Origin: Verrucomicrobiota bacterium
GTDB lineage: Bacteria > Verrucomicrobiota > Verrucomicrobiia > JADLBR01
DNA: 64,000 bases
Direction: 5' to 3'
Assembly (NCBI GenBank): GCA_029560585.1
Contig: JAKQKQ010000026.1
Span: 1-64,000, forward strand
Part shown: positions 5,357-38,404 of the stretch, one piece after another
How positions within the stretch are numbered: the first letter of the stretch is position 1
Layout of the letters: every line of letters begins with the position of its first letter
Made by a program: the position numbers and the translations under genes
The notes under the pieces: model-generated
Told to the model about the DNA's origin: nothing
The model's database searches: none
The model's input: the letters and a program-made list of their open reading frames with translations, nothing else

Positions 5357-7478
5357 CGGCCCGATATAACATCGGCCCGCTTTCCATGTGGCGCAATCGC
5401 TCGACCAGCAGGCTCAGGAACGAGCCCACGTCCGCCACGACCCCCGAGGACAATACCGACCCGCGATCGGCGAGCTTCGTAACCACGGCCGGGTTGATAT
5501 CGACGCAGACCATCTTGACGCCGGCGGGGGTCATGTTGCCCGAGCCGATGGAGTGGAGCATCGAGCCGAGCATGAGGATCATGTCGGCGCCTTTTATGTG
5601 GCGGGCGTACTCGTCCTGGGCGCGAATCATGTCGGTGAGCGTGTCTGGAAGAGGGCCATCGTCGCGGATCGAGGCCGCCAGCGCGAACGGCACATCGCGG
5701 CGGATGCATTCGTAAAAGATCCCGCTCTCAAGGACGCCCTGCCGAACGGCTTGTGCGATGCCGCCGCAGCGGCGGATCGCGTTGATGGCCCGGAGGTGAT
5801 TGCGATGGCCGCCGCGCACGCCGGCGCCCAGGCGGGCATCGACCCCCAGGGATGTGCCGAACATGGCCTGCTCGATGTCGTGGACGGCGAGGCCGTTTCC
5901 CGCCAAGAGTGCCTGCACGTAGCCCTCGCGCACCAGCCATGCCAGGCGATCAGCCCCGCCGGTGTGCACGACGACCGGGCCCGCCACCGCGACGATCCGC
6001 CCGCCCTGGCCACGGATCTGGTGCATCTGCCACGCCACCCGCTCGACTGCGAGCCCGACGCGACGCTCGCTTGAGACGCGCTCGCCCATGAACGCGAAGT
6101 CCGCCGCGATCGCCGGGCGATCCTCCCGCGTTTCCACCCTGCGCACCCGGCGTATGCCCGCCCCGCCGATCACGACACGGTCGCCCGGCTCGAGGCGACG
6201 GAAGATCGTGCAGCGCGCCTCGGCGGAATCGCCCTCGCCGCGGATCACGACGACGCCGTCCATGCGCTGGTCCTGCACGGGGATCCACCGTCCGCCCACA
6301 CGCACCTCGGTCGGATAGATGGTGGTCGCATAGAAATCTTCCGGGGCCACGCCCGTCCCGGTGACGGTTTCGAGCTGCGCGTCGGCCTCCTCTCGTGGCA
6401 CCGCCGTGGCGCCGAGATCGGCGAGCCGAGCCATCAGCTTGCCGAGCGCGTCTGAGGATGGTGCGGAGACGTGGATTTCGGCCCGAGAGGTGCTCTGCCG
6501 TTGTCGGCCCAGGCGGAATTCCATGACGCGGAAGCTGCCGCCCCCATCGACGATGACATCGAGCGCGCGATCCAGCAGGCCGGAGTCGAGCAAGTGACCC
6601 TCGAGATGCACCGAATCGGACTGCACCTCGCAGGCCGCGCTGGCGCGCGAAGGGCGCGGTTCGCCCACGCAAAGGGCAAGGCATTTCGCGGCCCCACCCG
6701 CCTTCATGAATTCGGTCAGCGGGGTCTCGACGACCTCGTGGCCCGCCGCGGCGAGCGCCGCCTTGAGTTCGGGGCTGGCGTGGTTGAGGAAGATGCGCTG
6801 GCCGATGTTGATGGCGTTGCACGCGAAATGGGCGGCATCGGCCGCGGAGACCGGGATGCGGCGCTCCGATGGGACGCGCGCCTCGATGAGGCGGTTGGAG
6901 GCGGCGTCGAAGGCCGGCGGATGATACATCAGCCAGCCGCCCTCCAGCGGGCAAAAGCACGTGTCGAGGTGATAGAATCGCGGATCGATAAGCCGCAGCG
7001 AGCACACCTCGACATCCAGCCAGCGTGCCACCAGCGGATGGGCGTCAAGTTCGGTGCGCAACCCATACGCGATCCACATCCAGCCGCCCTCGCGATCCAG
7101 CAGCGCGTCGCCCGCGCCCTCGAAAGGCAGATCCGGGGGCATCTCGAACACATCGAACCCCAGTCCGGTGAACCACTCCCGAAAATGGGCTTCCTCCGGC
7201 TGCCGCTCCCGGTAAAGGAAGCGTCCCAGGATCGCGCGATTGCCAAAGGTGACCCCCGCGTTCGCGGTGAACACCATGTCCGGCAGGCCCGGGCGCGGCT
7301 CGATCAGCTCGACCTGTGCCACCTCGCCCAGCCGTCCATGCAGCGCCTGCCACTGCGAGCGCGCAGCGTCCTGCGCCGAGCGGCCGACGTTGCCGTCCAT
7401 CCAGGGGTTGATCACATACCGAACCTCGAAGAAGTCGGGTCGGCACATCAGCAGACGGACGCGCGGTGGCGACGGCAT
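5337..7478 (-). CDS. agrE: AgrE/ArgZ-type bifunctional arginine dihydrolase / ornithine cyclodeaminase
   Basis: The N-terminal ~275 residues form an amidinotransferase/DDAH-fold domain. It contains PDMVFTANAG, FEGAGDAL (about 119-126), a YHLDTCFCPL block with His170, and FMKAGGAAKCLAL with the candidate nucleophile Cys266. These closely mimic the spacing of the cyanobacterial arginine-guanidine-removing enzyme. The C-terminal ~400 residues match the LOR/SDH-like TIGR00300 family (VAVAGPVVVHTGG, GNGLAVHDIEQAMFGTSLGVD, GSGNMTPAG), reported as the ornithine cyclodeaminase half of AgrE. The expected reaction is arginine to ornithine, ammonia and CO2, then ornithine to proline plus ammonia. The gene leads a two-gene operon with putA, which fits proline being passed on to glutamate. 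The start is the ATG at 7478; its ribosome site is weak. Confidence 0.85.
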   Translation of the reverse strand: MPSPPRVRLLMCRPDFFEVRYVINPWMDGNVGRSAQDAARSQWQALHGRLGEVAQVELIEPRPGLPDMVFTANAGVTFGNRAILGRFLYRERQPEEAHFREWFTGLGFDVFEMPPDLPFEGAGDALLDREGGWMWIAYGLRTELDAHPLVARWLDVEVCSLRLIDPRFYHLDTCFCPLEGGWLMYHPPAFDAASNRLIEARVPSERRIPVSAADAAHFACNAINIGQRIFLNHASPELKAALAAAGHEVVETPLTEFMKAGGAAKCLALCVGEPRPSRASAACEVQSDSVHLEGHLLDSGLLDRALDVIVDGGGSFRVMEFRLGRQRQSTSRAEIHVSAPSSDALGKLMARLADLGATAVPREEADAQLETVTGTGVAPEDFYATTIYPTEVRVGGRWIPVQDQRMDGVVVIRGEGDSAEARCTIFRRLEPGDRVVIGGAGIRRVRRVETREDRPAIAADFAFMGERVSSERRVGLAVERVAWQMHQIRGQGGRIVAVAGPVVVHTGGADRLAWLVREGYVQALLAGNGLAVHDIEQAMFGTSLGVDARLGAGVRGGHRNHLRAINAIRRCGGIAQAVRQGVLESGIFYECIRRDVPFALAASIRDDGPLPDTLTDMIRAQDEYARHIKGADMILMLGSMLHSIGSGNMTPAGVKMVCVDINPAVVTKLADRGSVLSSGVVADVGSFLSLLVERLRHMESGPMLYRADEPMAV

Positions 7479-24187: not shown

Positions 24188-25458
24188 CGCGGAGACGGTT
24201 CGTGGCGGTGGCGGCTGGAGGGATGGCCGGGTGGCAGATTTTGAGGGGGAGGGCGCGTGGGGAACCTGCGGCGAACGCGAAGCTGACGCTTGGGGTGATT
24301 GGGGTGGGCGGGCGCGGCAAGGCGCACATGAACGAGTTTTTCGCGGATCAGGGGGCGCGGGTGGTGGCGGTGTGCGATGTGCGGGCTGGCGAGCGGGAAA
24401 AGGCCAAGGCGTTGGCGGCGCGGAAGTACGGGGATGATTCATGCGCGACCTACGGTGATTTCCGGGAGCTGCTGGCGCGTGGGGACATCGATGCGGTGAG
24501 CATCGCGGTGCCGGATCACTGGCACGCGCTGGTGGCGCTGGCGGCGGTGCGTGCGGGGAAGCACGTGTATCTGGAGAAGCCGTTCGCGCACACGGTTGCG
24601 GAGGGTCGGGCGGTGGTGGAGGCGGCGCGGGGTCGGGACCTCGTGTTTCAAGTTGGGACGCAGCAGAGATCGATGGCGAACTATCGTCTGGCGTGCGAGC
24701 TGGTGCGCAATGGCCGGATCGGGAAACTGCGGACGGTGCGGGTGGGGTCACCCTTTGGCTTTCGCGGGGGCAGCACGCAGCCGGTGCCGGTCCCCGAGGG
24801 CATCGACTACGAGTTCTGGCTGGGGCCGTCCCCCAAGGTGCCGTACACCGAGGGCCGCTGTGATGGTGGGGGGGGCAAAGGCTGGTATCACATCAGGGAT
24901 TACTGCGTCGGGTGGTTGACCGCCTGGGGTTCGCACGACGTGGACATCGCGCACTGGGGCATGGGGGCTGACGCGACGGGGCCGGTCGAGGTGGACGCCT
25001 GGGGCGTTTTCCCGGAGGTGGGTGCCTGTGATGCCGTGTGGAAGTGGCGGGCGGAGTGCACCTATGCCAACGGGGTGAAGGTCATTTATGCCACCGAGCA
25101 GGAGAACCGCCACGGGGTCCGGTTCGAGGGCGATGGTGGCTGGGTGTTCGTTCGGCGCGGGTTCACCGATTCGAACCCGAAGAGGTTGCTCTACGAGATC
25201 ATCCGGCCGGGGGAGGAGCGCCTGGTGGCCGCAGACAATCATTTTGCGTGCTTCCTCGATGCGATCCGGACAGGGCGCGAGGTGACGGCGCCGCCCGAGG
25301 GGGCGCATCGGTCGACATCGGCCTGTCACCTGATGCACATCGCGATGCGGCTGGGGCGCAAGTTGCGCTGGGATCCGGCGGCGGAGCGTTTCGTCAACGA
25401 CGAGACCGCCAACCGGATGCTTGGACGGGCGATGCGGGCACCCTGGAGCCTGGCATGA
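24172..25458 (+). CDS. Tat-exported Gfo/Idh/MocA-family oxidoreductase
   Basis: A 428-residue protein with a twin-arginine leader (MTRRRFVAVAAGGMAG), Rossmann motif LGVIGVGGRGKAHM, the EKPFAHTV catalytic-lysine block and SHDVDIAHWGMG in the C-terminal domain. It starts inside the end of tetR behind GGAGGAGAT, and its stop overlaps the next ATG (ATGA). It is a second, only moderately similar copy of the family in this window (compare 16112-17467). Its neighbours, a ThuA-domain lipoprotein and a TIM-barrel isomerase-like protein, are typical partners in PVC sugar catabolism. The substrate is not known. Confidence 0.9.
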   Translation: MAAGMTRRRFVAVAAGGMAGWQILRGRARGEPAANAKLTLGVIGVGGRGKAHMNEFFADQGARVVAVCDVRAGEREKAKALAARKYGDDSCATYGDFRELLARGDIDAVSIAVPDHWHALVALAAVRAGKHVYLEKPFAHTVAEGRAVVEAARGRDLVFQVGTQQRSMANYRLACELVRNGRIGKLRTVRVGSPFGFRGGSTQPVPVPEGIDYEFWLGPSPKVPYTEGRCDGGGGKGWYHIRDYCVGWLTAWGSHDVDIAHWGMGADATGPVEVDAWGVFPEVGACDAVWKWRAECTYANGVKVIYATEQENRHGVRFEGDGGWVFVRRGFTDSNPKRLLYEIIRPGEERLVAADNHFACFLDAIRTGREVTAPPEGAHRSTSACHLMHIAMRLGRKLRWDPAAERFVNDETANRMLGRAMRAPWSLA

Positions 25459-27716
25459 AACGAGGATCTGATATGGAAAGTGCGCGCGGGAGAATGTGGT
25501 GGGCGATTGCGTGGGCGACGGTGATATGGCTTTCCGCGGGATGCGCGAGGCGGCCGATCGATCCGGCGGAGATCGAGGCGCGGTTTGGCCCGGCGCAGTC
25601 ATATCGCTATGGCGCGAGCCGCGCGCCTTTGCTGGACTTGGAACGCTTCATCCATTCGCACGCGGGGAATCCCTCGGCGAGGCGCCAGATCGAGCGCCGC
25701 CTGATCGATCTGGCGATGTCCGGTGCGACGATCGAGGCGCGGGCCTTCGCGTGCGAGCAGTTGGGGTTCATCGGTGGGGCGGCCTCCGCCCGCGCGCTGG
25801 GTGGGCTGCTGGACGATGACGCGCTGTCGTTCCACGCGCGCCAGGCATTGCAGAGGATCCCCGATCCGGCCGCGGGGAAGATCCTGCGGGATGCGATGGC
25901 GCGCAGCGATGGCGGGGCACGCGAAGCGTTGAGGCAGGGTCTTGTGGCGCGCGGTGACATTCAGGCGCCGGGGCCGAAGGCCCCAGCATCGAAGCATCCG
26001 GCGCGACGGCAGGCGGGACTAGTGGCTGCCCCCGCAAGCGTGGCGGAGTTGCTTGGGCGCGCGAACGCCGCCGAATCGGCCGCGCGCGGGGCCGCAGTCT
26101 CGTCCCTCGAACGCATCCCCGATGCGGGTGCCGATGCGGCGATCCTCGCGGCCGCGGCAAAGGCAGACCCGGCGGTCCGGGCGAGATTGATCGGTGTTCT
26201 GGCGGCGCGGGGGGCCGACGGGGCCGTGCCCCGTTTTCTGGAGTGGGCCAAGGGGGATCTCGACGAGGGTGTTCGCACGGCGGCGATCGAGGCCGTGGGC
26301 AAGGTTGGCGGCAAGGCGGAACTGGCGAAGCTGGTGGCACTGTACGCGGGCGCAGGATCCCCGCGGGAGGAGCGCGCCGGCCAGGATGCGACTTGGGCGT
26401 TGTTCCGGCGCGCGGGTGATCCGGCGGCACTGAAGGTGGCGGTCGGCGCCGTACTCGGGGCGGCGCCGCCAGCCAGGCAGGAAGTCTTGCGGAAGCTGCT
26501 GGCGCGCGCCGAAGAGCTGGTGCGCTCGCCGGGTCCAACCGCCGACACGCTGGTCGCGGAGCCGTTGCCGACCGGCGAGGGCGATCCCATTTTCCCCGAC
26601 GGTCATCGTCTCGTGGCCTACCACGATTGCGGGATGGACGAGGTCGGTGGCGGGGGAGGTGGACCCGCGATTCGGCTGACGCAGGGCAAGCCGTATCGAT
26701 TTGGCGACCGCGATCCGGTGCGCAGCGTCGCGACGGATCCGAAGCAAGTGCTTTTTCAGATCACGGGGTTGGCCGATACCGGACGATACGTTCTTGGGCT
26801 GACGTGGTGGGATGCGGATGGCAAGGGCCGGAAACAATCCGTCCATCTTGGGTCTGGCGAACCGGCCGCGTGGCAGAGGGCGCTGCCGTCGGCGATGCCG
26901 CTGGCATTTCATGCTGAGACGTCCGTTTGGGCGCGCGTCCAGTTTCCGTTGCCCGCCGGCGTGGTGAAGGGGGGCGCGCTCCGGGTGGCCATCAACTGCG
27001 AGGCCGGGCCGAATGCTGTCGTCAGCGAGCTCTGGCTACTGGAGAGACTGCCCGGGCCCGAGCGAAAGCGGGTCCTGATCGTGTGCGGCGATGACCACAA
27101 GGCGCATCGATGGCGCGAGACGGCACCGGAGTTTGCCGCCATCCTTCGCGAAGATCCGAGGCTCGAGGTCTCGATCACGGAGTCGCCGGCGATCCTCGGC
27201 TCGCCGCTGCTGGAGCATTACGATGCGGTGATGCTGCACTTCAAGAACTACGGCGAACGACTGCCCCTGGACCCCGAAATCTGGGAGGGGCTGGAGAAGT
27301 TCGCGTCGTCGGGCAAGGGCGTGGTCCTGGCGCATTTTGGTTGCGGCGCGTTTGAGGACTGGCAGGGGTTCGGGGCCGTGGCGGGTCGGGTCTGGGACAA
27401 GACCAAGCGCGGGCACGACCCGTACGGGGCGTTCCGTGTTCTGGTGAAGGACCGTGGCCATCCCATCACGGGTGGGATGGACGACTTCGATACCGCCGAT
27501 GAGCTCTATACGTGCCTGAAGGGCGACGCTGCGATCCGGGTCCTTTGCGGGGCCGTGTCCAAGATCGACAAACAGGAGCACCCGATGGCCTTTGTCAACG
27601 GCGCGGAGAAACTGCGGGTGTTCCATTGCACGCTCGGCCACGACCTCGCGTCCTTGAAACACGCGGGCACCCGGACGCTATACCGCCGTGGCGTGGGGTG
27701 GGCGGCGGGACTTTAA
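25455..27716 (+). CDS. Lipoprotein with HEAT-like repeats and C-terminal ThuA domain
   Basis: A ~753-residue protein with a lipobox (VIWLSAGC), so probably membrane-anchored on the outer face. Residues ~50-350 are Ala/Leu-rich HEAT-like helices (e.g. ARAFACEQLGFIGGAASARALGGLL, VRTAAIEAVGKVGG). A beta-rich region follows. The last ~220 residues are a ThuA/trehalose-utilisation-like glutamine-amidotransferase fold (KRVLIVCGDDHKAHRW, GVVLAHFGCGAFEDW, HPITGGMDDFDTADELY). The ATG at 25455 overlaps the preceding stop; an in-frame ATG at 25473 has a better-placed AGGA and gives the same lipobox. Such proteins accompany Gfo/Idh/MocA enzymes, but their biochemical activity is unsettled. Confidence 0.85.
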   Translation: MKRGSDMESARGRMWWAIAWATVIWLSAGCARRPIDPAEIEARFGPAQSYRYGASRAPLLDLERFIHSHAGNPSARRQIERRLIDLAMSGATIEARAFACEQLGFIGGAASARALGGLLDDDALSFHARQALQRIPDPAAGKILRDAMARSDGGAREALRQGLVARGDIQAPGPKAPASKHPARRQAGLVAAPASVAELLGRANAAESAARGAAVSSLERIPDAGADAAILAAAAKADPAVRARLIGVLAARGADGAVPRFLEWAKGDLDEGVRTAAIEAVGKVGGKAELAKLVALYAGAGSPREERAGQDATWALFRRAGDPAALKVAVGAVLGAAPPARQEVLRKLLARAEELVRSPGPTADTLVAEPLPTGEGDPIFPDGHRLVAYHDCGMDEVGGGGGGPAIRLTQGKPYRFGDRDPVRSVATDPKQVLFQITGLADTGRYVLGLTWWDADGKGRKQSVHLGSGEPAAWQRALPSAMPLAFHAETSVWARVQFPLPAGVVKGGALRVAINCEAGPNAVVSELWLLERLPGPERKRVLIVCGDDHKAHRWRETAPEFAAILREDPRLEVSITESPAILGSPLLEHYDAVMLHFKNYGERLPLDPEIWEGLEKFASSGKGVVLAHFGCGAFEDWQGFGAVAGRVWDKTKRGHDPYGAFRVLVKDRGHPITGGMDDFDTADELYTCLKGDAAIRVLCGAVSKIDKQEHPMAFVNGAEKLRVFHCTLGHDLASLKHAGTRTLYRRGVGWAAGL

Positions 27717-27790: not shown

Positions 27791-28663
27791 ATGAAGATTG
27801 GATTTCACACGGATGCGTTCAACTCCTCGTACTGGAATTTCGAAAAGTGCCTTGAATGGGCCGAGCGCAACGGCGTCCATTTCATCGAGTGTGGGTTGAT
27901 CGATGGCGTGAGCTGGATACACGGCCTGGGCTATCAGCCGCACGTGGCCCTGTACGAGGACCCGCTGTTATTGCGCCGTCGAATGGAGAGGCGCGGCATC
28001 CGATTCTCGCAGGTGGATGCGGCGTATCCGCTTTCAGGGGAGGACGGCCCATCGCGGGGCTTGCCGTACGTTCTCAAGTCGATCCCTTGGGCGAAACTCG
28101 CGGGTTGTCCCTGCATCGCGACCACCGATGGTCTGCACAGGCCGGAGGGGCTCGGTGACGATGAGGCCATGGCGATGATGCGGCGGACATATCGGCGCAT
28201 CGTCGAGGTCGCCGAGGCATACGAGATCGTGGTGAATATCGAGGTGCACGGATATTTTACCACGAATCCCGACCGACTGGAGGAGATGCTCGCGTTCTGC
28301 GAGAGCCCGTACTTGCGGATGAACATGGACACCGGCAACTCGTTCATAGCCGGCCAGGACCCCGTGGCGTTCGCGGGACGTTTCGGGCGGAAGATTGCGC
28401 ACGTTCACGTGAAAGACGTGAGCGAATCGCTTGCGGCGGTGGCACGGGGCGGCCAGACCGGCATCGCGGTCAGCCACTGCTCCGTGGGGGAGGGGGTCAA
28501 CGCGGCCAACATCCGGCGCGTGCTGGAGTGCCTCCGCGACGGCGGCTATCAGGGCACCTTGAGCATCGAGTGTGAGGGTGCTGGAGGGCCGATGATCGAG
28601 ATGTCATTGGCGTGGTTGAGGCGCACCCTGAAAGAGCTGGGTATTCCCGAAGAAACGGCGTGA
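27791..28663 (+). CDS. Sugar phosphate isomerase/epimerase-like TIM-barrel protein
   Basis: A 290-residue AP-endonuclease-2-type (xylose-isomerase-like) TIM barrel, cytosolic since no signal is seen. Recognisable strands and metal-site blocks are IGFHTDAFN, IVVNIEVHGYFTTN, LRMNMDTGNSFIAG, IAHVHVKDV and GTLSIECEGAGG; Glu, Asp, His and Glu in these probably hold the metal. A ribosome site GAGGGA precedes the ATG. It ends the TetR-controlled operon, 74 bases after the ThuA gene. The role is probably isomerisation or epimerisation of the keto-sugar made by the oxidoreductase. Confidence 0.85.
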   Translation: MKIGFHTDAFNSSYWNFEKCLEWAERNGVHFIECGLIDGVSWIHGLGYQPHVALYEDPLLLRRRMERRGIRFSQVDAAYPLSGEDGPSRGLPYVLKSIPWAKLAGCPCIATTDGLHRPEGLGDDEAMAMMRRTYRRIVEVAEAYEIVVNIEVHGYFTTNPDRLEEMLAFCESPYLRMNMDTGNSFIAGQDPVAFAGRFGRKIAHVHVKDVSESLAAVARGGQTGIAVSHCSVGEGVNAANIRRVLECLRDGGYQGTLSIECEGAGGPMIEMSLAWLRRTLKELGIPEETA

Positions 28664-28940: not shown

Positions 28941-29336
28941 ATGCTGAACATCACCATCGAGAATGAGCCGAACGGGCGGGTTCGTGCCTGCCTGATCGGC
29001 CGCCTGGATACGGAGACCTATGGTCAATGCGAGGAGCGCTTGCGACCAGTTCTGTCGGGGGACGCGCGCGAGCTGGTGTTTGACTTGGCCCAGCTTGACT
29101 ATCTGAGCAGCATGGGGTTGCGGGTGTTGATGCAAACGACGAAGGCCCTTGCCCAGCGCGGCGGCAGGTGCGTCCTGACCCGGCTCCAGCCTCCGATTCG
29201 GGCGGTCATCGACATCGCAAACGCGCTGCCCCCAGAGACGATTTTTGCCAGCGTCGAAGAGGCCGATCGCTATCTGGACGTCATGCAGCGGCGGGCGAAG
29301 GAGGAGGCCGCGAAAAAAGCGAGGCGCTCCACGTAA
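28941..29336 (+). CDS. STAS-domain anti-sigma factor antagonist
   Basis: A 131-residue protein of SpoIIAA/RsbV type. It contains IGRLDTETYGQCEERL and the phosphorylation-site loop DYLSSMGLRVLM with candidate serines 56 and 57. Proteins of this kind bind a HATPase anti-sigma kinase and are switched off by serine phosphorylation. The gene for such a kinase lies tail-to-tail 27 bases away, so the two form a plausible partner-switching pair. The C-terminus is a Lys/Arg/Ala tail. The 277 bases upstream hold no gene that I can support. Confidence 0.88.
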   Translation: MLNITIENEPNGRVRACLIGRLDTETYGQCEERLRPVLSGDARELVFDLAQLDYLSSMGLRVLMQTTKALAQRGGRCVLTRLQPPIRAVIDIANALPPETIFASVEEADRYLDVMQRRAKEEAAKKARRST

Positions 29337-29363: not shown

Positions 29364-29810
29364 TCAATCGCGGGGCACCAGGATGGACAGGCGGTTGATG
29401 CCGCTGATCCGTTCGTACTGGATGTCGGACGCGAACTGCCTCACCAGCGTGAGGCCGAGCCCACCGATTTTTCGTTCTTCGAGCGGCGCGTCCAGATCGG
29501 GTGCGGGCGCGTTCAGGGGGTTGAATTCCCGACCGTCGTCCTCGATCACGATCTTGACCCGCTTTGGCTGCACGGAGACGCACAGCTTGATCTCGTGGTC
29601 GCCCCGATCGTCATAAGCGTACTTGAGGACGTTGGTTCCGATCTCCTCGATGATGAGGTTGCACGCGTAGGCGGCCTGCCCGCCGAGCCCCTGAGCTTTG
29701 AGGAAGTCCATGGCGTCCGCGGTGACGCGGCAGAGGGCGGGCAGGTTGTTCTGGAAAACCCGCTCCCAGATTGGCGGGGCATCGTCTCTGGAGGATTCGC
29801 CCGGCTTCAT
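29364..29810 (-). CDS. RsbW/SpoIIAB-type HATPase (anti-sigma / serine kinase-like)
   Basis: A 148-residue GHKL-type ATPase. The N-box is IIEEIGTNVLKYAYDD (about 53-68), the G1 box IEDDGREFNP and the G2 box KIGGLGLTLVRQF. The ATG at 29810 is preceded by AGGGA; a longer open frame upstream is non-coding by composition. It converges on the STAS gene. The canonical role is to bind a sigma factor or other output and to phosphorylate a STAS antagonist. No sigma factor or PP2C phosphatase gene is in the neighbourhood, so the output is unknown; the adjacent STAS-fusion/ABC operon is a candidate. Confidence 0.88.
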   Translation of the reverse strand: MKPGESSRDDAPPIWERVFQNNLPALCRVTADAMDFLKAQGLGGQAAYACNLIIEEIGTNVLKYAYDDRGDHEIKLCVSVQPKRVKIVIEDDGREFNPLNAPAPDLDAPLEERKIGGLGLTLVRQFASDIQYERISGINRLSILVPRD

Positions 29811-30004: not shown

Positions 30005-32950
30005 ATGATGGCCAACCTCCAGCGGCTGCTGATGTCCCTCGCGTTGCTCGGTGCGGCGGCAATGGTCTTGCTGCTCTCGGACCTCCATTCCCGAAAGGGT
30101 GCCCGCCGCCCACAGGCCGATCGGATGATCCCCGTCGCATTGGTCAAACACGCCTCGAACTCCTTGCTGGACGAGGTGGAGCAGGGTGTGATCGACGCCA
30201 TGGCCGAGCGTGGCTACCGCGATGGCGCGAAGATCTCTCTCCAGCGTTTCTCGGCCGACGGTGACGTGCCGACCAGCACCGTCATCGCGAAGCGCGTCAC
30301 CGACGGCAGCTTCCGACTGGTCGTGAGCATGAGCACGCTCTCCCTTCAGGCGGTGGCCAACGCGAATTCTGCCGGGCGCACCCCCCACGTCTTTGGCGCT
30401 GTCACAGATCCCTCGGCCTCGGGCGTCGGCATCCGGGCCATGGGCAGCACGAACAAGCCACCCTGGATGGCGGGGATCGGCACGTTTCAGCCGGTGGAGT
30501 CCATCTTCCGGATGGCCAGGGAATCCTGGCCTGGGCTCAAGGTTGTGGGCGTCGTCTGGAATCCGGCCGAGCGCAATTCGGAGATGTGCGTCCTGAAAGG
30601 AAGGCAGGTCTGCGCCGAATTCGGCATTCAGCTCGTCGAGGCCACCGTGGACCAGACCAAGGACGTCCGCGATGCCGCCGGCGCGCTGGTCGCCCGGGGC
30701 GCGCAGGGCTTCTGGACGGGTTTCGACCTCACCGTCTACGCCGCGATGTCCTCGCTCTGCGAGGTCGCCGCCCGCGCCGGCATCCCTGTTTTTTCGAATA
30801 ATACCGGTCACCTCAAGGAGGGCACGCTTTTCGAGCTCGGCGCGAACTATGGGGAGGTCGGCCGCCAGATCGGCAACATCGCCGCCGACGTCCTCGGCGG
30901 TGCCGATCCCGCGAAGATGGCCGTCGAAAATTTCATGCCGGAACGCGTCATGCTGAACCGGCAGGTGCTCGGGGCGCTCCGCGATCCGTGGAAGTTCACT
31001 GACGAGGCCGTCGCCCGCGCGGTGATGATCATCGGCGCCGATGGCTCCGTCGAAAAGGATGCCCAGGATGCGCGTGCCGGCCCTGCCTCGGCTGCGGCGC
31101 CGGCGCGCGATCACCCGCACAAGATCGCCATGGCGTATTTCGGGCCGGACGAGGGCACCGACTCGACCATCGCGGGCATGATGGACGGCCTGCGCGAGCG
31201 CGGTCTTGAGGAGGGGCGGGATTTCTCGGTTGTGAAGTTCCACGCCAACGGTGAGATCGGCGCCATCGCCCCCATCATGCACGCGATCGATTCCGGGGAT
31301 GCCGACGTCGTGGTGACCTTTTCGACTCCGGTCCTCACGGCGGCGTGCTCGGCGGTGAGGCGGAAGCCCGTGGTGTTCACCTACTGCACCGACCCGGTCG
31401 CCGCGGACGCGGGCAAGACCTTCGAGGATCACCTCCCGTTCGTGACCGGGATAGGGTCATTTCCCCCGATAGAGGATGCCGTCAAGATGATCACCCTGAC
31501 ATTTCCCAAGGCGCGGCGCATCGGGACGCTCTACAACACTGCGGAGGCCAACTCGGTGCGCGAGGTCGGCAGGCTGCGCGACCTCTGCGGTTCGCTCGGC
31601 CTTGAACTGGTGGAGGCGGCGGCCGGGAATACGGCCGAGGTTGTGCCGGCGGCCCAATCGCTTGTGGCGCGGGGTGTGGACGTCGCGTTTCTGCCCGGCG
31701 ACAACACGGCCTATCAGGCCTTCGAGGGAATTGCCAGTACGCTCGCGGCAGCGCGAGTGCCCCTGGTCATCGATGCCCCGGAATTCACCGATCGCGGCGC
31801 CCTGGCCGCCGTTGGGGTCGGATATTACAACACGGGTTTCGCCACGGCGGAACCGCTCGCGCGCGTGATGGCGGGCGAATCGCCCGCCAAAATACCTTTT
31901 CGGAATGTTGCCCAAAAGCAGGTTAAGCTGAATCTCAAGGTGGCGTCACATCTCGGCGTCAGGTTTCCGCCGGAAGTCATGGCCATGCGGACCGAGGGGG
32001 CGAAATCCTCGGCCACTGGGGCGAAACCGGTCCCCCGGCTGTGGCGCATCCACCAGTTGTACTATCTCGAATCGCCCCTCGTTGAGGACAGCACGCGGGG
32101 GTTCCGGGAGGGGCTGGTAGCCGCGGGCCTCCGGGAGGGCGCCGACTTCGCGCTCAAGACATTGAGCGCCCAGGGCGACATGACCGCCCTGGGGTCGTTG
32201 TTTGACTCGGCGCGCATCGCCGGCGTGGATCTCTTCGTGGTTTTTTCCACGCCGACGCTCCAGACGGCGGTCAAAAAGGTCAGGGACGTGCCGGTGTTAT
32301 TCACGGTGGTGGCTGACCCATTCTTGGCCGGCGCTGGCAGGACGAATGATGACCACCTGCCGAACATCACGGGCGTCTGCACGCAGGGCCCTTATGCCGA
32401 GATGGCGAAACTCCTCGTGAACCATTTCCCGCAGATCAAGCGGGTGGGAACACTGTTTTGCCCATCCGAGGCGAATTCGGTGGCCAACAGGGATCTCTTC
32501 GTTCGCGAGGCGGCGCGGCGGGGGATCAGGGTCGAAGCCGTGGCCGTGAATGCCGCGGCAGAATTGGCCGACGCCGCCCTTGCGCTGTGCGGGCGTGGAC
32601 CCGATGCGGTCGTTCAGGTAATCGATAATCTCACCGCCGCCGGATTTCCGGCCATCGCCCGTGCGGCGCGACAGGCGCGAATACCGATCTTCACTTTCCA
32701 GGATGCCACGATCGGGCAGGGCGCCAGCCTCGTGTTATCGCGGGACTACCGCGATGCGGGGGTGGACACCGCGGCGATGGCGGTGCGCATCATGCGCGGG
32801 GAGAGTCCGGCCACGATACCTTTTGCGCCGCCGCGCACCGTGCGGTTACTGATCCACACCGATAATGCCGCGGCGGTCGGCCTGCGCATCCCCGCGGCGC
32901 TTCTGGAGAAGGCGCAGAGGGTTTTGCCGGGGCCATCGAAGGGTTCGTGA
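30005..32950 (+). CDS. TrpX-like ABC transporter substrate-binding protein with three tandem binding modules
   Basis: A 981-residue protein with one N-terminal hydrophobic segment (about residues 8-25) that acts as anchor or signal. Three successive copies of the ABC_sub_bind (PF04392, TrpX-type) fold follow, at about 42-345, 371-660 and 678-975. Each has the same sequence of landmarks: a 'G.R.GL/Y.EG' start helix, 'V.FSTP.L..A' (VVTFSTPVLTAA; VVFSTPTLQTA), 'VTGIGSFPPIED' or its equivalent, and 'R.GTL.....EANSV'. TrpX relatives in other bacteria bind aromatic amino acids, usually as single-module proteins. The gene leads a tight operon with a STAS-fusion protein, a permease and an ATPase. What the three modules bind, and whether they work in transport or signalling, is open. 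Confidence 0.88.
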   Translation: MMANLQRLLMSLALLGAAAMVLLLSDLHSRKGARRPQADRMIPVALVKHASNSLLDEVEQGVIDAMAERGYRDGAKISLQRFSADGDVPTSTVIAKRVTDGSFRLVVSMSTLSLQAVANANSAGRTPHVFGAVTDPSASGVGIRAMGSTNKPPWMAGIGTFQPVESIFRMARESWPGLKVVGVVWNPAERNSEMCVLKGRQVCAEFGIQLVEATVDQTKDVRDAAGALVARGAQGFWTGFDLTVYAAMSSLCEVAARAGIPVFSNNTGHLKEGTLFELGANYGEVGRQIGNIAADVLGGADPAKMAVENFMPERVMLNRQVLGALRDPWKFTDEAVARAVMIIGADGSVEKDAQDARAGPASAAAPARDHPHKIAMAYFGPDEGTDSTIAGMMDGLRERGLEEGRDFSVVKFHANGEIGAIAPIMHAIDSGDADVVVTFSTPVLTAACSAVRRKPVVFTYCTDPVAADAGKTFEDHLPFVTGIGSFPPIEDAVKMITLTFPKARRIGTLYNTAEANSVREVGRLRDLCGSLGLELVEAAAGNTAEVVPAAQSLVARGVDVAFLPGDNTAYQAFEGIASTLAAARVPLVIDAPEFTDRGALAAVGVGYYNTGFATAEPLARVMAGESPAKIPFRNVAQKQVKLNLKVASHLGVRFPPEVMAMRTEGAKSSATGAKPVPRLWRIHQLYYLESPLVEDSTRGFREGLVAAGLREGADFALKTLSAQGDMTALGSLFDSARIAGVDLFVVFSTPTLQTAVKKVRDVPVLFTVVADPFLAGAGRTNDDHLPNITGVCTQGPYAEMAKLLVNHFPQIKRVGTLFCPSEANSVANRDLFVREAARRGIRVEAVAVNAAAELADAALALCGRGPDAVVQVIDNLTAAGFPAIARAARQARIPIFTFQDATIGQGASLVLSRDYRDAGVDTAAMAVRIMRGESPATIPFAPPRTVRLLIHTDNAAAVGLRIPAALLEKAQRVLPGPSKGS

Positions 32951-32954
32951 AGAC

Positions 32955-34202
32955 ATGGAGATAGAGCGACAGCCTGGTCCGGAGATGATGGTGCTCAGGC
33001 TCCATGGCCGGATGGACGCCGCGTGGAGCGGCCACGTCAGCAAAGCCATCGCCGAGTGCATTCAGGCCGGTCATCACGCCCTGGGGATCGATATGGCGGG
33101 CGTCGATTACATCAGCTCCGCCGGAATCCGTGTGCTGGTGCAGCACGCGCGCCAGCTCAAGGGCATCGATGGCCGTTTCTCCCTGTTGAACACGGGTGGC
33201 GAAGTCAGGCGCGTCTTGACGCTGGCGGGGCTTGACGCGCTCTTGGGTGTCGGCGGTGGGTTGGCGGTCGGCGGTGCTCGTTTGGGAAGGCCCCCCGGCG
33301 GCGCTGAGGCGACCGCGGTGTCCTTGGCGGGCGCGCGTGGGGAGATTCACCTGCTTGACGCAGGTTCGACGATGCGGGTGCGAGAACTGGGCGAGGCCGA
33401 GCGCTGGCTCAGGGGCGCCGGTGATCCGCAGGCATGTTCCCTTTGCGAATTTGGGCCGGACATGATCGGTTTGGGGCTCGGGGCGCTTGGTGCCGGCGAA
33501 CCGCGACTGGGGGAATTCCTCGCCGTGCCGGGTGCGGCCGTGTGCCAGTCAGCCGATGGTTCGAATCGGCCGGACTATGTACTTCGGCAGGGCTCGCTGG
33601 TGCCGAGCGTGAACGTGGCGTACGGCATCATTGGACAGGGCAGTTTTGGGCGACTCCTGCGGTTCGAGAAATGCCCCGACAGCAACGGCGTGTCCATGAG
33701 CGAGGTGGCTGGTGCGTGCCTGGCCGCGGTGGGCGGCCACGTCGCGGCCGTGGTGATGGTGGCCGAGACCGCTGGGCTGGTGGGGGCCGCGGTCCAGAGG
33801 TTGCCAGACGACGGGACGGCGATGGCTGCCGCCGATGGCATTTTCGCCTTCCCCCGCGTCCGCGAGTGGCTGAGCTTCACCTCGGAAACGGCTTTCGCGA
33901 AATGCGTGAGCCTGGCCGTCGGTTTCGTGGCCTCGGCGCGGGGGGCCGAACGGATGCGATTCCTGAAACCGATGTCGAGGGCGGTTGATCTGCAGGGGCA
34001 TTTTCATGCGGCGGCGTTCCCGTACCGCCCGATTCGGCGGGGCAAGCTGGACTTGGACGAGGCACTGTCGCCGCTGTTTGACAATGAGAACGTCCTCGGC
34101 CTGCTGCATTTGGTGAACGACTGGCGCATCCCCAGCGGCGTGGGCGAAAGCTCTTTCCTGCGGGGTGCCTGCTGGTGTGCGCCCGTGGAGGATCGGCCAT
34201 GA
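32955..34202 (+). CDS. STAS-domain protein with a C-terminal domain of unknown function, embedded in an ABC operon
   Basis: A 415-residue cytosolic protein. Residues ~1-100 form a STAS domain (LRLHGRMDAAWSGHVSKAI, loop DYISSAGIRVLVQHARQL with Ser54/Ser55). A Gly-rich linker follows. The remaining ~300 residues do not match a family I know: GEIHLLDAGSTMRVREL, CSLCEFGPDMIGLGLGALGAGEPRLGEFL, NVAYGIIGQGSFGRLLRFEK, and a C-terminal LFDNENVLGLLHLVNDWRIP. It starts 4 bases after the binding-protein stop, and its own stop overlaps the permease ATG (ATGA). That position suggests it regulates, or is part of, the transporter, as the STAS protein MlaB does in the unrelated Mla system. It could also be a target of the nearby HATPase. 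Confidence 0.75.
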   Translation: MEIERQPGPEMMVLRLHGRMDAAWSGHVSKAIAECIQAGHHALGIDMAGVDYISSAGIRVLVQHARQLKGIDGRFSLLNTGGEVRRVLTLAGLDALLGVGGGLAVGGARLGRPPGGAEATAVSLAGARGEIHLLDAGSTMRVRELGEAERWLRGAGDPQACSLCEFGPDMIGLGLGALGAGEPRLGEFLAVPGAAVCQSADGSNRPDYVLRQGSLVPSVNVAYGIIGQGSFGRLLRFEKCPDSNGVSMSEVAGACLAAVGGHVAAVVMVAETAGLVGAAVQRLPDDGTAMAAADGIFAFPRVREWLSFTSETAFAKCVSLAVGFVASARGAERMRFLKPMSRAVDLQGHFHAAAFPYRPIRRGKLDLDEALSPLFDNENVLGLLHLVNDWRIPSGVGESSFLRGACWCAPVEDRP

Positions 34203-35140
34203 CACTGATGCTCGGTGCGCTCACGATCGGCCTCATCCTCTCGCTCTTGGCGATGGGGATTTTCATCAGCTTCCGCGTCTTCGAGATAGCCGATATCACG
34301 GTGGATGGCTCCATCACCCTGGGCGCGGCCTTGTGCGCCGTCCTGCTGGTGCGCGGCGTGAATCCGGCGCTGGCCATGGCCGCAAGTTTTCTCGCCGGCA
34401 CTGTCGCCGGCACGATCACCGGAGTCCTCCAGGCCCGATTCAAGATCAATCCGCTGCTCTCTGGCATCCTCGTCATGACGGCCCTCTATTCGGTGAACCT
34501 CCACATCATGGGGCGCAGCAACATTCCCCTCCTCACCGCAGAGAACGTGACCACCTGGGCCGACCGGTGGTCGCAGGCGTTGCTTGGTGTCGCGGACGTG
34601 AACGTGTTTGGCTGGATGGTCGCGGGGCGGGACCTCGGCATCCTTGCGCTGGTGCTTGGCATTGTGACGATGGTGGGCGTCGCGCTGTACGGGTTTCTGC
34701 GCACCGAGGTGGGCACGGCCATGCGGGCGGCGGGCGACAACCCGCAGATGATCAGGGCGCTGGGCGTCGATGTGGAATCCTATCGCATCCTCGGCCTGGC
34801 CCTGTCGAACGGGCTGGTTGCCTGGTCGGGGGCGCTGCTCGCGCAGTATCAGGGGTTCGCCGACGCGCAGATGGGCATCGGGATGGTCGTGTGGGGGCTG
34901 GCCAGCGTGATCATCGGCGAATCACTCACGGGTTCCCGGAGCCTTGGCCTCGCGATCTATGGGGCCATCGCGGGATCGGTCCTTTTCCGCCTTCTGGTGG
35001 CCATGGCTCTCCGCTGGGGGCTTAATCCCAACGACCTGAAGATCGTCACGGCCCTCTTCGTGTTTGGCGCGCTGGTGCTGCCCACGTGGGTGGGCACGTG
35101 GCGACGAAATCGCACGATCGCGGAGACTGCGAAACCTTAG
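34199..35140 (+). CDS. ABC transporter permease, TrpY/BPD_transp_2-like
   Basis: A 313-residue inner-membrane protein with eight to ten hydrophobic segments. Motifs are FEIADITVDGSITLGAAL, FKINPLLSGILVMTALY, RAAGDNPQMIRALGVD and GLASVIIGESL, which fit the PF02653 permeases that pair with TrpX-type binding proteins. GGAGGA lies 7 bases before the ATG, which overlaps the stop of the STAS-fusion gene, so the two are coupled. The ATPase gene follows after 13 bases. Confidence 0.9.
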   Translation: MTLMLGALTIGLILSLLAMGIFISFRVFEIADITVDGSITLGAALCAVLLVRGVNPALAMAASFLAGTVAGTITGVLQARFKINPLLSGILVMTALYSVNLHIMGRSNIPLLTAENVTTWADRWSQALLGVADVNVFGWMVAGRDLGILALVLGIVTMVGVALYGFLRTEVGTAMRAAGDNPQMIRALGVDVESYRILGLALSNGLVAWSGALLAQYQGFADAQMGIGMVVWGLASVIIGESLTGSRSLGLAIYGAIAGSVLFRLLVAMALRWGLNPNDLKIVTALFVFGALVLPTWVGTWRRNRTIAETAKP

Positions 35141-35153
35141 AACCAGGCGCCCC

Positions 35154-35966
35154 ATGCTCACCATCCGGGACATTCACAAGACGTTCAATGCGGGGACCGT
35201 CAATGAGGTCCGTGCCCTCCAGGGCGTCAGCCTCCATGTGCCCGAGGGCGGCTTCGTCGTCGTCCTCGGCGGAAACGGTTCGGGCAAGTCCACGCTCCAA
35301 AATGCCGTCGCGGGCAGCTTTTTCGTAGACGGGGGCTCGATCCAGATAGCGGGGGAGGACGTCACCCGCTGGCCGGAGCACCGGAGGGCGCGCCTCATCG
35401 GGCGCGTTTTTCAGAACCCATTCAGCGGCACGGCACCGACCATGTCGATCGCCGAGAACTTCGCCCTCGCGACACGCCGGGGGCGCCGCCGCAGAATCCG
35501 TTGGGCGATTTCGCGATCGGTGCGCGATGAGTTGCGCGAGCGAGTGCGGGGTCTGAGAATGGGTTTGGAAGACCGCCTGGACAGCGCTATCGGTAGCCTA
35601 TCGGGCGGCCAGCGTCAGGCGCTGACCCTCCTGATGGCAACATGGCTGAAACCGGCACTGCTGCTGCTGGACGAACACACGGCCGCGCTGGACCCCAAGA
35701 GCGCCGAGCAGGTTATCCGATTGACCGGCGAGATCGTCGGCGGCCTCGGCCTGACGACGGTCATGGTGACCCACTCGATGCAACAGGCCGTCAACCTCGG
35801 CGACCGCGTGGTGATGATGCACAAGGGTCGGATCGCCTACAGCTTCTCGGGGGCCGAGAAACAGCGGCTGCGGGTGGACGACCTGCTCGGCCGATTTGAG
35901 GAACTGCGGCGGAGGGAGATGCTGGACGAGAGCACCGCCGCACTGTTGCGGGAAAGCTACGTTTGA
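35154..35966 (+). CDS. ABC transporter ATP-binding protein, TrpZ-like
   Basis: A 270-residue ATPase with Walker A GGNGSGKST (39-47), signature LSGGQRQ, Walker B ALLLLDEH and the switch histidine in VMVTHSM. It belongs with the permease and triple-module binding protein upstream and completes a TrpXYZ-like set. Its start at 35154 lies 13 bases after the permease stop, inside a longer open frame whose extra N-terminus is the permease gene read in another frame. Confidence 0.92.
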   Translation: MLTIRDIHKTFNAGTVNEVRALQGVSLHVPEGGFVVVLGGNGSGKSTLQNAVAGSFFVDGGSIQIAGEDVTRWPEHRRARLIGRVFQNPFSGTAPTMSIAENFALATRRGRRRRIRWAISRSVRDELRERVRGLRMGLEDRLDSAIGSLSGGQRQALTLLMATWLKPALLLLDEHTAALDPKSAEQVIRLTGEIVGGLGLTTVMVTHSMQQAVNLGDRVVMMHKGRIAYSFSGAEKQRLRVDDLLGRFEELRRREMLDESTAALLRESYV

Positions 35967-37090: not shown

Positions 37091-38404
37091 ATGGCCGAAG
37101 CATTTCCAGGGATCAAGAGAATCGCGTACGAGGGACCGAAGTCGAAGAACCCGCTCGCGTTCAAGCATTACAATCCCGACGAGGTTGTCGAAGGCAAGAA
37201 GATGAGGGACCACATGCGGTTCTCGGTCGTCTACTGGCACACCTTCCGCAATCCGCTGTCGGATCCCTTCGGCGTGGGCACCGCGATCCGCCCGTGGGAC
37301 GACGGGGGAAACAGCGTCGAGAACGCGCGGCGCCGGGTGCGCGTGGCCTTCGAGTTTATGGAGAAACTCGGCGCGCCATTCTACGCCTTCCACGACCGCG
37401 ACGTCGCGCCCGAGGGCGCCACCCTGGCGGAGAGCCACAGGAATCTCGACGCCGTGGTGGGCGTGCTCAAAGAGGAGCAACGTCGCACCGGCATCGGCCT
37501 GCTCTGGGGGACGGCCTGCCTTTTTGCGCATCCGCGCTACGCGCACGGTGCGGCGACGAGCTGCAACGCGGACGTGTTCGCCTATGCGGCGGCGCAGGTC
37601 AAGAAGGCGATCGAGGTGACGCACGAACTGGGTGGGGACGGCTATGTCTTCTGGGGCGGCCGCGAGGGGTACTCGACGCTTCTCAATACGGACATGAGGC
37701 GCGAGCTGGATCATCTGGCGAGATTCCTGCACATGGCCGTGGACTATAGGAAGAAGATCGGCTTTCGCGGACAATTCTACATCGAGCCGAAGCCCAAAGA
37801 GCCGACCAAGCACCAGTACGATTCTGATGCGGCCGCCTGCCTGAATTTCCTGCGCGAGCACGGGTTGATGGGGCACCTGAAGCTCAACATCGAGACGAAT
37901 CACGCGACGCTGGCTGGCCACACTATGCAGCACGAGCTGGAGACGGCGATCGCCGCTGGGGCGCTCGGTTCGATCGACGCGAACACGGGCGACACGCTGA
38001 TCGGGTGGGACACGGACCAGTTCCCCACGGACGTGTACCTCACGACGCAGGTCATGCTCAGCATCCTCAATATGGGAGGCCTCACGACGGGTGGCGTGAA
38101 TTTCGACGCGAAGGTGCGGCGCGAGAGCTTCGAGCCGGTGGACCTATTCCACGCGCACATCGGGGGTATGGACGCCTTCGCACGCGGGCTGAAGATCGCC
38201 GCGGCCATCCGCGCCGATGGCCGGCTCGCCGAATTCGTGAAGGGCCGATATCGATCGTGGGACACGGGGGTTGGCAAAGAGGTCGAGTCAGGTTCGGCGT
38301 CGTTCGAGTCGCTTGAGGAATATGTCATGGCCAAGGGCGAGATCGCGGCCAACGAGAGCGGCCGTCAGGAGTTCTTGGAGAACCTGATCAACGAATTCAT
38401 CTGA
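37091..38404 (+). CDS. xylA: Xylose isomerase
   Basis: A 437-residue class II xylose isomerase converting D-xylose to D-xylulose in the cytosol (glucose to fructose as a side activity). The signature blocks are [13 protein letters not shown] with the catalytic His/Asp pair, [24 protein letters not shown] with the metal-binding Glu, [13 protein letters not shown] and GSIDANTGD. The length is normal for the family. GGAG precedes the ATG. No xylulokinase or XylR is next to it; it stands alone between corA and a repeat-filled gap. Confidence 0.95.

Follow-up and report, generated by a model that had tools for sequence, protein, structure and literature searches.

According to the MlaFB structure report (PMC7367683), the ABC ATPase MlaF depends for its stability on the STAS protein MlaB, its binding partner. 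Thr52 of MlaB is described there as lying in the interface with MlaF, and a phosphomimetic change at this residue weakens binding. The same report raises the possibility that regulation of ABC transporters by small proteins is more widespread, and it states that the authors' own structure search returned no other STAS-ABC pair (PMC7367683). Separately, a recent study assigned PTD012 the activity of a zinc β-ketogulonate decarboxylase and related its structure to that of α-acetolactate decarboxylase (ALDC) (PMC12435205). Here we describe a protein, STASx, in which a STAS domain and an ALDC-like fold are joined in a single chain. A full-text literature search with most subscription papers outside its coverage found no paper containing both "STAS domain" and "acetolactate decarboxylase", and no description of a STAS-ALDC fusion or of such a protein.

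STASx is encoded in the window, the 64,000-nucleotide stretch of Verrucomicrobiota DNA that was analysed, where the transporter operon has the gene order SBP-STASx-permease-ATPase. The genes and the two domains of STASx are as follows.

28941-29336, plus strand: lone STAS protein, RsbV-like (PF01740, 7.2e-16)
29364-29810, minus strand: HATPase_c_2 protein, an RsbW/SpoIIAB-like kinase, divergent to the SBP gene (PF13581, 5.3e-20); the start codon was chosen, with the candidate Met at 29810
30005-32950, plus strand: SBP, membrane-anchored, with three tandem ABC_sub_bind (TrpX-like) domains (PF04392, 3.1e-133, three stretches)
32955-34202, plus strand: STASx, an open reading frame of 415 residues with a STAS and an ALDC-fold domain (AF2 model, pLDDT 92.0, pTM 0.88)
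32961-33242, plus strand: STAS domain of STASx, residues 3-96 (PF01740, 3.9e-16; TIGR00377; RsbV/SpoIIAA fold, Z ~16-17)
33363-34196, plus strand: ALDC/PTD012/PPC-fold domain of STASx, residues ~137-414, with the first strands from ~120 (VIA-align Z 17.4 for the full model and 17.2 for the domain alone)
34199-35140, plus strand: permease (BPD_transp_2), overlapping the STASx stop codon (PF02653, 1.5e-28)
35154-35966, plus strand: ABC ATPase (PF00005, 1.4e-26)

The ATG of STASx at 32955 is 4 bases past the SBP stop codon (TGA, 32948-32950), and the STASx stop codon (TGA, 34200-34202) overlaps the ATG of the permease (34199-34201). This overlap is the layout of a translationally coupled operon gene, and the open reading frame is real. 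The SBP has a hydrophobic N-terminal segment, as read in the translation. Further out, the window holds a HEAT-repeat/ThuA-like protein (25038-27716) and a sugar isomerase-like protein (27791-28663) on one side, and CorA (PF01544, 36026-36946) and a xylose isomerase-like protein (37091-38404) on the other; all but CorA were named by eye from their translations.

The initial annotation, made from the sequence, had described STASx as a STAS fusion whose C-terminal part belonged to no family that could be named. The STAS half is borne out by the PF01740 match to residues 3-96, with 59.2 bits against a cut-off of 22.6, and STASx also exceeds the cut-off of TIGR00377 (anti-sigma factor antagonist) with 59.1 bits against 53.45. 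The statement on the C-terminal part agrees with the sequence searches as well. Residues ~110-415 gave no Pfam or NCBIfam match at E≤1, and neither phmmer nor a profile search against PDB sequences returned anything convincing: the best phmmer match (E 0.0016) was a stretch of an unrelated glycoside hydrolase, and the best profile match had an E of 0.42. Pfam comparison of 71 STASx relatives gave only scattered weak matches, the best with E 0.016, and none was shared by more than two members. Neither PF03306, the ALDC family, nor PF08925, that of PTD012, matched any of the 71 members or of 8 members of subfamily 2 at E≤1, and G000 has no PF03306 match; PF08925 matched nowhere in the genomes, controls included, which makes that search uninformative. 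A PP2C phosphatase or a GAF-like domain, which the annotation had named as hits that would speak against its reading, had no profile match in the 71 members and did not appear among the fold matches listed.

The same annotation had called the domain unknown, and here structure comparison gave a different answer. The whole-protein Foldseek and VIA-align lists mixed STAS and ALDC rows, and the domain was therefore refolded alone (AF2 model, pLDDT 93.2, pTM 0.92), which gave a clean list. VIA-align, which only re-aligns the list of Foldseek, matched the domain to ALDC (6j92_A) with Z 17.2 and 3.0 Å over 199 residues, to human PTD012/C11orf54 (1xcr_A) with Z 14.3 and 4.3 Å over 233 residues (Z 14.2 for the full model), and to six PPC/DUF296-like entries (3htn, 3hwu, 2h6l, 2dt4, 2nmu and 2hx0) with Z 8.5-11.1. 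The first row below this fold group had a Z of 4.3, which is a clear gap. Foldseek alone ranks ALDC entries 1-11, with an E of 2.4e-4 for the whole protein and 4.6e-4 for the domain alone. The SCOP superfamily of the group is AF0104/ALDC/Ptd012-like.

In profile comparison with ALDC, hhalign gave a P of 0.034 when few sequences were used; with 71 STASx sequences against 33 sequences (32 ALDC and 4bt2) the match was still weak, with P 0.004 and a probability of 8% over 71 columns, and the global mode gave nothing (P 0.63). In a column-shuffle control the STASx-ALDC profile score was 28.1 against a shuffled maximum of 25.2 (none of 100 shuffles as high), and subfamily 2 scored 33.1 against a shuffled maximum of 25.3 in 50 shuffles. 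The best stretches for STASx and subfamily 2, columns 76-178 and 74-96 of the ALDC profile respectively, both span its GE region. Because the sequence evidence alone is weak, the claim of kinship with ALDC rests on the shuffle control together with the fold. These results place the domain in the ALDC/PTD012/PPC fold group by structure, not in ALDC by sequence; as modelled, the domain is a known fold and no new one.

The C-terminal domain has homologues in 8 of 93 genomes, counting that of the window, and in 19 of the 387 genomes of the phylum. The most diverged of them, at 23% identity, still carry the conserved motifs, and these occurrences show that the domain is not a product of chance. In public genomes, a scan yielded 80 loci and 92 confirmed stretches. 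The loci are titled mostly Verrucomicrobia, Planctomycetes and Acidobacteria, and in a few cases Deltaproteobacteria, Armatimonadetes, Elusimicrobia, Sumerlaeota or Bacteroidetes; almost all come from MAGs, in which title and binning may be in error. The annotation had also asked whether the domain exists by itself or in fusions with PP2C, GAF or HATPase domains. All but three of the 105 frames bearing the domain also encode STAS (102 frames); the three are broken (L047) or N-terminally short (L090, L096), and no fusion to PP2C, GAF or HATPase was present among the 105. At L047 (7620-8873) STASx is split into two frames, by a pseudogene event or an assembly error. One short contig, L130, carries two facing STASx frames of equal length and score (727-2103 and 3542-4918), probably an assembly palindrome. 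L138 encodes a remote ALDC-like protein that scores 26.6 bits to PF03306, has H-x-H and GGH motifs and may represent another branch of the fold group. One branch of the family, subfamily 2 (L019/L022 and L034-L043), stands alone: in the loci examined, transporter genes of the STASx-operon kind were missing, as were HATPase, SpoIIE and lone STAS genes, which indicates that the two domains can function together in the absence of a transporter.

Residue conservation was measured in two sets. The 71-member alignment used 70 of the 78 STAS-containing loci; L047, L065, L066, L084, L110, L114, L120 and L122 were dropped for broken, truncated or masked frames, L065 needlessly, as its frame has none of these defects. 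Since the pattern of the genome scan contained H[FN]H, the 71/71 obtained for His349 and His351 is biased, and motif counts were taken instead from the pattern-free set of 24 profile-found matches, which includes the window itself, two loci of the profile training set, and L041 and L043, identical copies on one palindromic contig. The conserved positions are the following.

33114-33119, plus strand: Ser54-Ser55 (SS in 71/71 alignment members and 24/24 profile-search matches)
33510-33515, plus strand: Gly186-Glu187, paired with the ALDC "GE" motif in the hhalign register (71/71 and 24/24)
33999-34007, plus strand: His349-x-His351, candidate zinc ligands (13/13 in subfamily 1 and 9/11 in subfamily 2, pattern-free set)
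34107-34109, plus strand: His385, candidate third zinc ligand (71/71; pattern-free set, 13/13 in subfamily 1 and 9/11 in subfamily 2)

We take Ser54-Ser55 to occupy the phospho-site motif position of SpoIIAA/RsbV-type STAS domains, with a putative phospho-acceptor. In ALDC, the Glu of the "GE" motif is the catalytic one and the H-x-H-x10-H motif provides the zinc ligands. In STASx, His349, His351 and His385 occur jointly in 22 of the 24 profile-found matches. In the AF2 model, His349 and His351 are on strand 346-355 and His385 is on the following strand, 382-386. This order is that of the HxH and GGH segments of ALDC, with a spacing of 33 instead of 10 residues. A forced full-length alignment of STASx with ALDC leaves the His residues out of register. 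A zinc site at His349/His351/His385 is therefore predicted from conservation and from the order of the strands. The basic residue nearest the ALDC arginine, Arg236, is present in 10 of 13 members of subfamily 1 and nearly absent in subfamily 2.

The position of STASx in the transporter operon is close to constant. Among the 80 loci, the permease is beside STASx in 76, the ATPase in 72, the SBP in 70 and all three in 63. Contig ends, broken frames or masked bases account for most of the other 17; L068 and L120, where no SBP was found, and L079, where no ATPase was found, have no such account. The initial annotation had placed STASx in an "otherwise ordinary transporter operon". The transporter operon stands, whereas "ordinary" undersells it, as STASx is a near-constant fourth member. 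In the profile-found set PF04392 is present in all 13 subfamily 1 genomes and adjoins STASx on the same contig in 12; in G416 it is on another contig. The six genomes with subfamily 2 only had no PF04392 match. Seven genomes have a strong PF04392 match (E below 1e-30) without STASx, and six loci among them show plain SBP-permease-ATPase operons, in which the permease shares 27-38% identity with that of the window. The 61 STASx-linked permeases, with a mean mutual identity of 65%, are separated from those of the six plain operons by a branch with SH-aLRT 96, in a quick tree with very long control branches. This split indicates that STASx marks a particular clade of TrpXYZ-like importers. Within the clade STASx diverges faster than its partners, the mean identity being 41% for its domain part, 65% for the permease and 69% for the ATPase. 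Mirror-tree correlations of 0.80 for STASx-permease and 0.84 for STASx-ATPase (n=61) ignore species relatedness and say little.

The SBP was also compared with TrpX (NF041285). The repeats of the window SBP score 142.0, 149.5 and 142.5 bits, each short of the 390 set as equivalog cut-off, and thus give no indication that tryptophan is the substrate. An assignment of the SBP as TrpX was rejected, since the 425 bits of the whole protein are the sum of three repeats and thus an artefact. The number of SBP repeats per chain varies from 1 to 4, with 3 in the window, 4 in G418, G416, G364 and G293, and 2 in G147 and G218; L016 and L018 have an SBP of one-repeat length. In a planctomycete group (L106, L107, L115, L116 and L117) the SBP gene comes after the ATPase, not before STASx. 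Clustering of neighbouring open reading frames was swamped by shadow frames and served only for choosing proteins to annotate by domain.

Genes of partner-switching type lie near many of these operons. Seven genomes of the class (~41 Mb) contain 22 HATPase_c_2 matches at E≤1e-15, and 7 of these are within ~8 kb of STASx, spread over 6 of the 7 genomes, against an estimated ~0.1 for a uniform spread; G029 has no strong match near STASx. SpoIIE matches lie within ~8 kb of STASx in 2 of the 7. In the 31 loci of at least 16 kb, a HATPase gene is found in 15, another STAS gene in 16 and a SpoIIE gene in 10, and the other 15 loci have no kinase, phosphatase or second STAS nearby. These counts link a phospho-switch to the operon in many loci, not in all; partner switching is either not obligatory or encoded elsewhere in the remainder. 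The window has no SpoIIE gene. The SpoIIE protein carries a dCache sensor in L044 and a cNMP-binding domain in L045. The lone STAS protein of the window (28941-29336) is ~70% identical to the product of a gene right after the ATPase in three other loci (L013:6865-7467, L014:10801-11406 and L015:11081-11497); in the window this gene is upstream, beyond the HATPase gene, and its place has thus changed. In L016, tandem HATPase_c_2-like genes (6000-6515 and 6550-6999) are flanked on either side by a lone STAS gene, upstream of the transporter, and the same tandem pair is found in L056 and L073.

The occurrence of STASx, with a zinc-decarboxylase-type fold, usually in one kind of uptake operon and in several phyla suggests a built-in regulator that senses the imported compound. 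Specifically, STASx may serve a TrpXYZ-like ABC importer as a dedicated regulatory subunit in the cytoplasm, with STAS docking, partner-switch gating and a metabolite-binding ALDC-like domain, a reading to which we give an even chance. By analogy with MlaB on MlaF, the STAS domain would bind the ATPase or transporter and support its assembly or activity. The RsbW-like kinase whose gene neighbours the operon in many loci would phosphorylate Ser54/Ser55, a SpoIIE-type PP2C would remove the phosphate, and the phospho-state would gate the contact between STAS and transporter. The ALDC-like domain, with a metal held on His349/His351/His385, could bind, and perhaps slowly decarboxylate, a keto-acid-type metabolite, either a product or a relative of the imported solute, and would thereby report the cytoplasmic supply back to the transporter. 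More generally, we propose tentatively that the activity of one family of non-Mla ABC importers, spread over Verrucomicrobiota, Planctomycetota and Acidobacteriota, is set by a Ser-phosphorylated STAS subunit combined with a recruited decarboxylase-fold domain as metal-dependent sensor of the imported metabolite, so that a single operon would hold transport, metabolite sensing and partner switching.

The conserved site could also mean that catalysis comes first, the C-terminal domain being an active zinc decarboxylase or hydrolase on the imported compound that STAS merely tethers. The hallmarks of the enzymes with this fold are kept (GE glutamate in 24/24, HxH with the further His in 22/24), and its known activities are decarboxylations, by ALDC and by PTD012, the β-ketogulonate decarboxylase with zinc on three His (PMC12435205). 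Yet the spacing of the third His is unlike that of ALDC, and the basic residue nearest the ALDC arginine, kept in 10/13 of subfamily 1, is nearly lost in subfamily 2. PPC/DUF296 proteins, moreover, share the fold and are known as DNA- or protein-binding proteins rather than enzymes. We consider such an enzyme unlikely. At the other extreme, STASx might only steady the ATPase or permease, with the ALDC-like domain as a dead scaffold. MlaF stability requires MlaB (PMC7367683), and the faster divergence of STASx (41%) than of permease (65%) or ATPase (69%) would fit a scaffold; the motif residues of the domain, however, are kept while its remainder diverges, and a purely structural role appears very improbable. 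Signalling might also run in the opposite direction, with STASx acting in the manner of an anti-anti-sigma protein that relays uptake status to the linked kinase and STAS proteins, and through them to gene expression, instead of controlling uptake. The TIGR00377 score above the cut-off for anti-sigma antagonists and the clustering of HATPase, STAS and SpoIIE genes with STASx, SpoIIE having dCache (L044) or cNMP-binding (L045) domains, are in favour of this direction, but 15 of the 31 long loci have no partner-switch genes, and we judge it improbable.

Several known systems come close to STASx, which differs from each of them. With ALDC (PF03306) it shares the fold, the GE motif in register, the HxH on a strand and the further His on the next strand, whereas the motif is H-x-H-x10-H in ALDC and H-x-H-x33-H in STASx, which lacks a PF03306 match, has extra N-terminal strands, insertions and the STAS fusion, and is only 10-13% identical. 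PTD012/C11orf54 (DUF1907, PF08925) covers more of the domain (233 residues) and holds zinc on three His (PMC12435205), but it is known as a metabolic enzyme, from eukaryotes and a number of bacteria, and not as part of a transporter, and STASx has no PF08925 match. Proteins of the PPC/DUF296 type (AF0104, 3htn, 2dt4 and others) show a shorter version of the fold, with ~140 residues, one lobe and no STAS, and are to our knowledge absent from transporter operons. In this respect a STASx family would give the zinc decarboxylase fold a further role, in signalling or transport, and the fold explains a family left blank by Pfam, NCBIfam and PDB sequence searches.

On the STAS side, RsbV and SpoIIAA resemble STASx in the SSxG motif, the TIGR00377 score above cut-off and the adjoining HATPase_c_2 gene, and are unlike it in that STASx has a large second domain and a fixed place in a transporter operon. 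That operon resembles TrpXYZ in its PF04392 SBP, BPD_transp_2 permease and ATPase, and departs from it in the SBP repeats (142-149 bits against the TrpX cut-off of 390), which often number 2-4, and in the inserted STASx gene. The ligand of the ALDC-like domain would also point to the substrate of the importer. MlaB, the STAS subunit of MlaFEDB, is likewise a STAS protein encoded with an ABC transporter, with a fold Z of 11-12 to STASx and with a conserved Ser/Thr at the STAS motif (PMC7367683). Whereas MlaB is a minimal lone STAS protein of an MCE lipid transporter, STASx has two domains and PF04392, PF02653 and PF00005 neighbours. The STASx family is a candidate second class of STAS-ABC regulation, in importers instead of lipid transporters, with a phosphorylation circuit adjoining in many loci.
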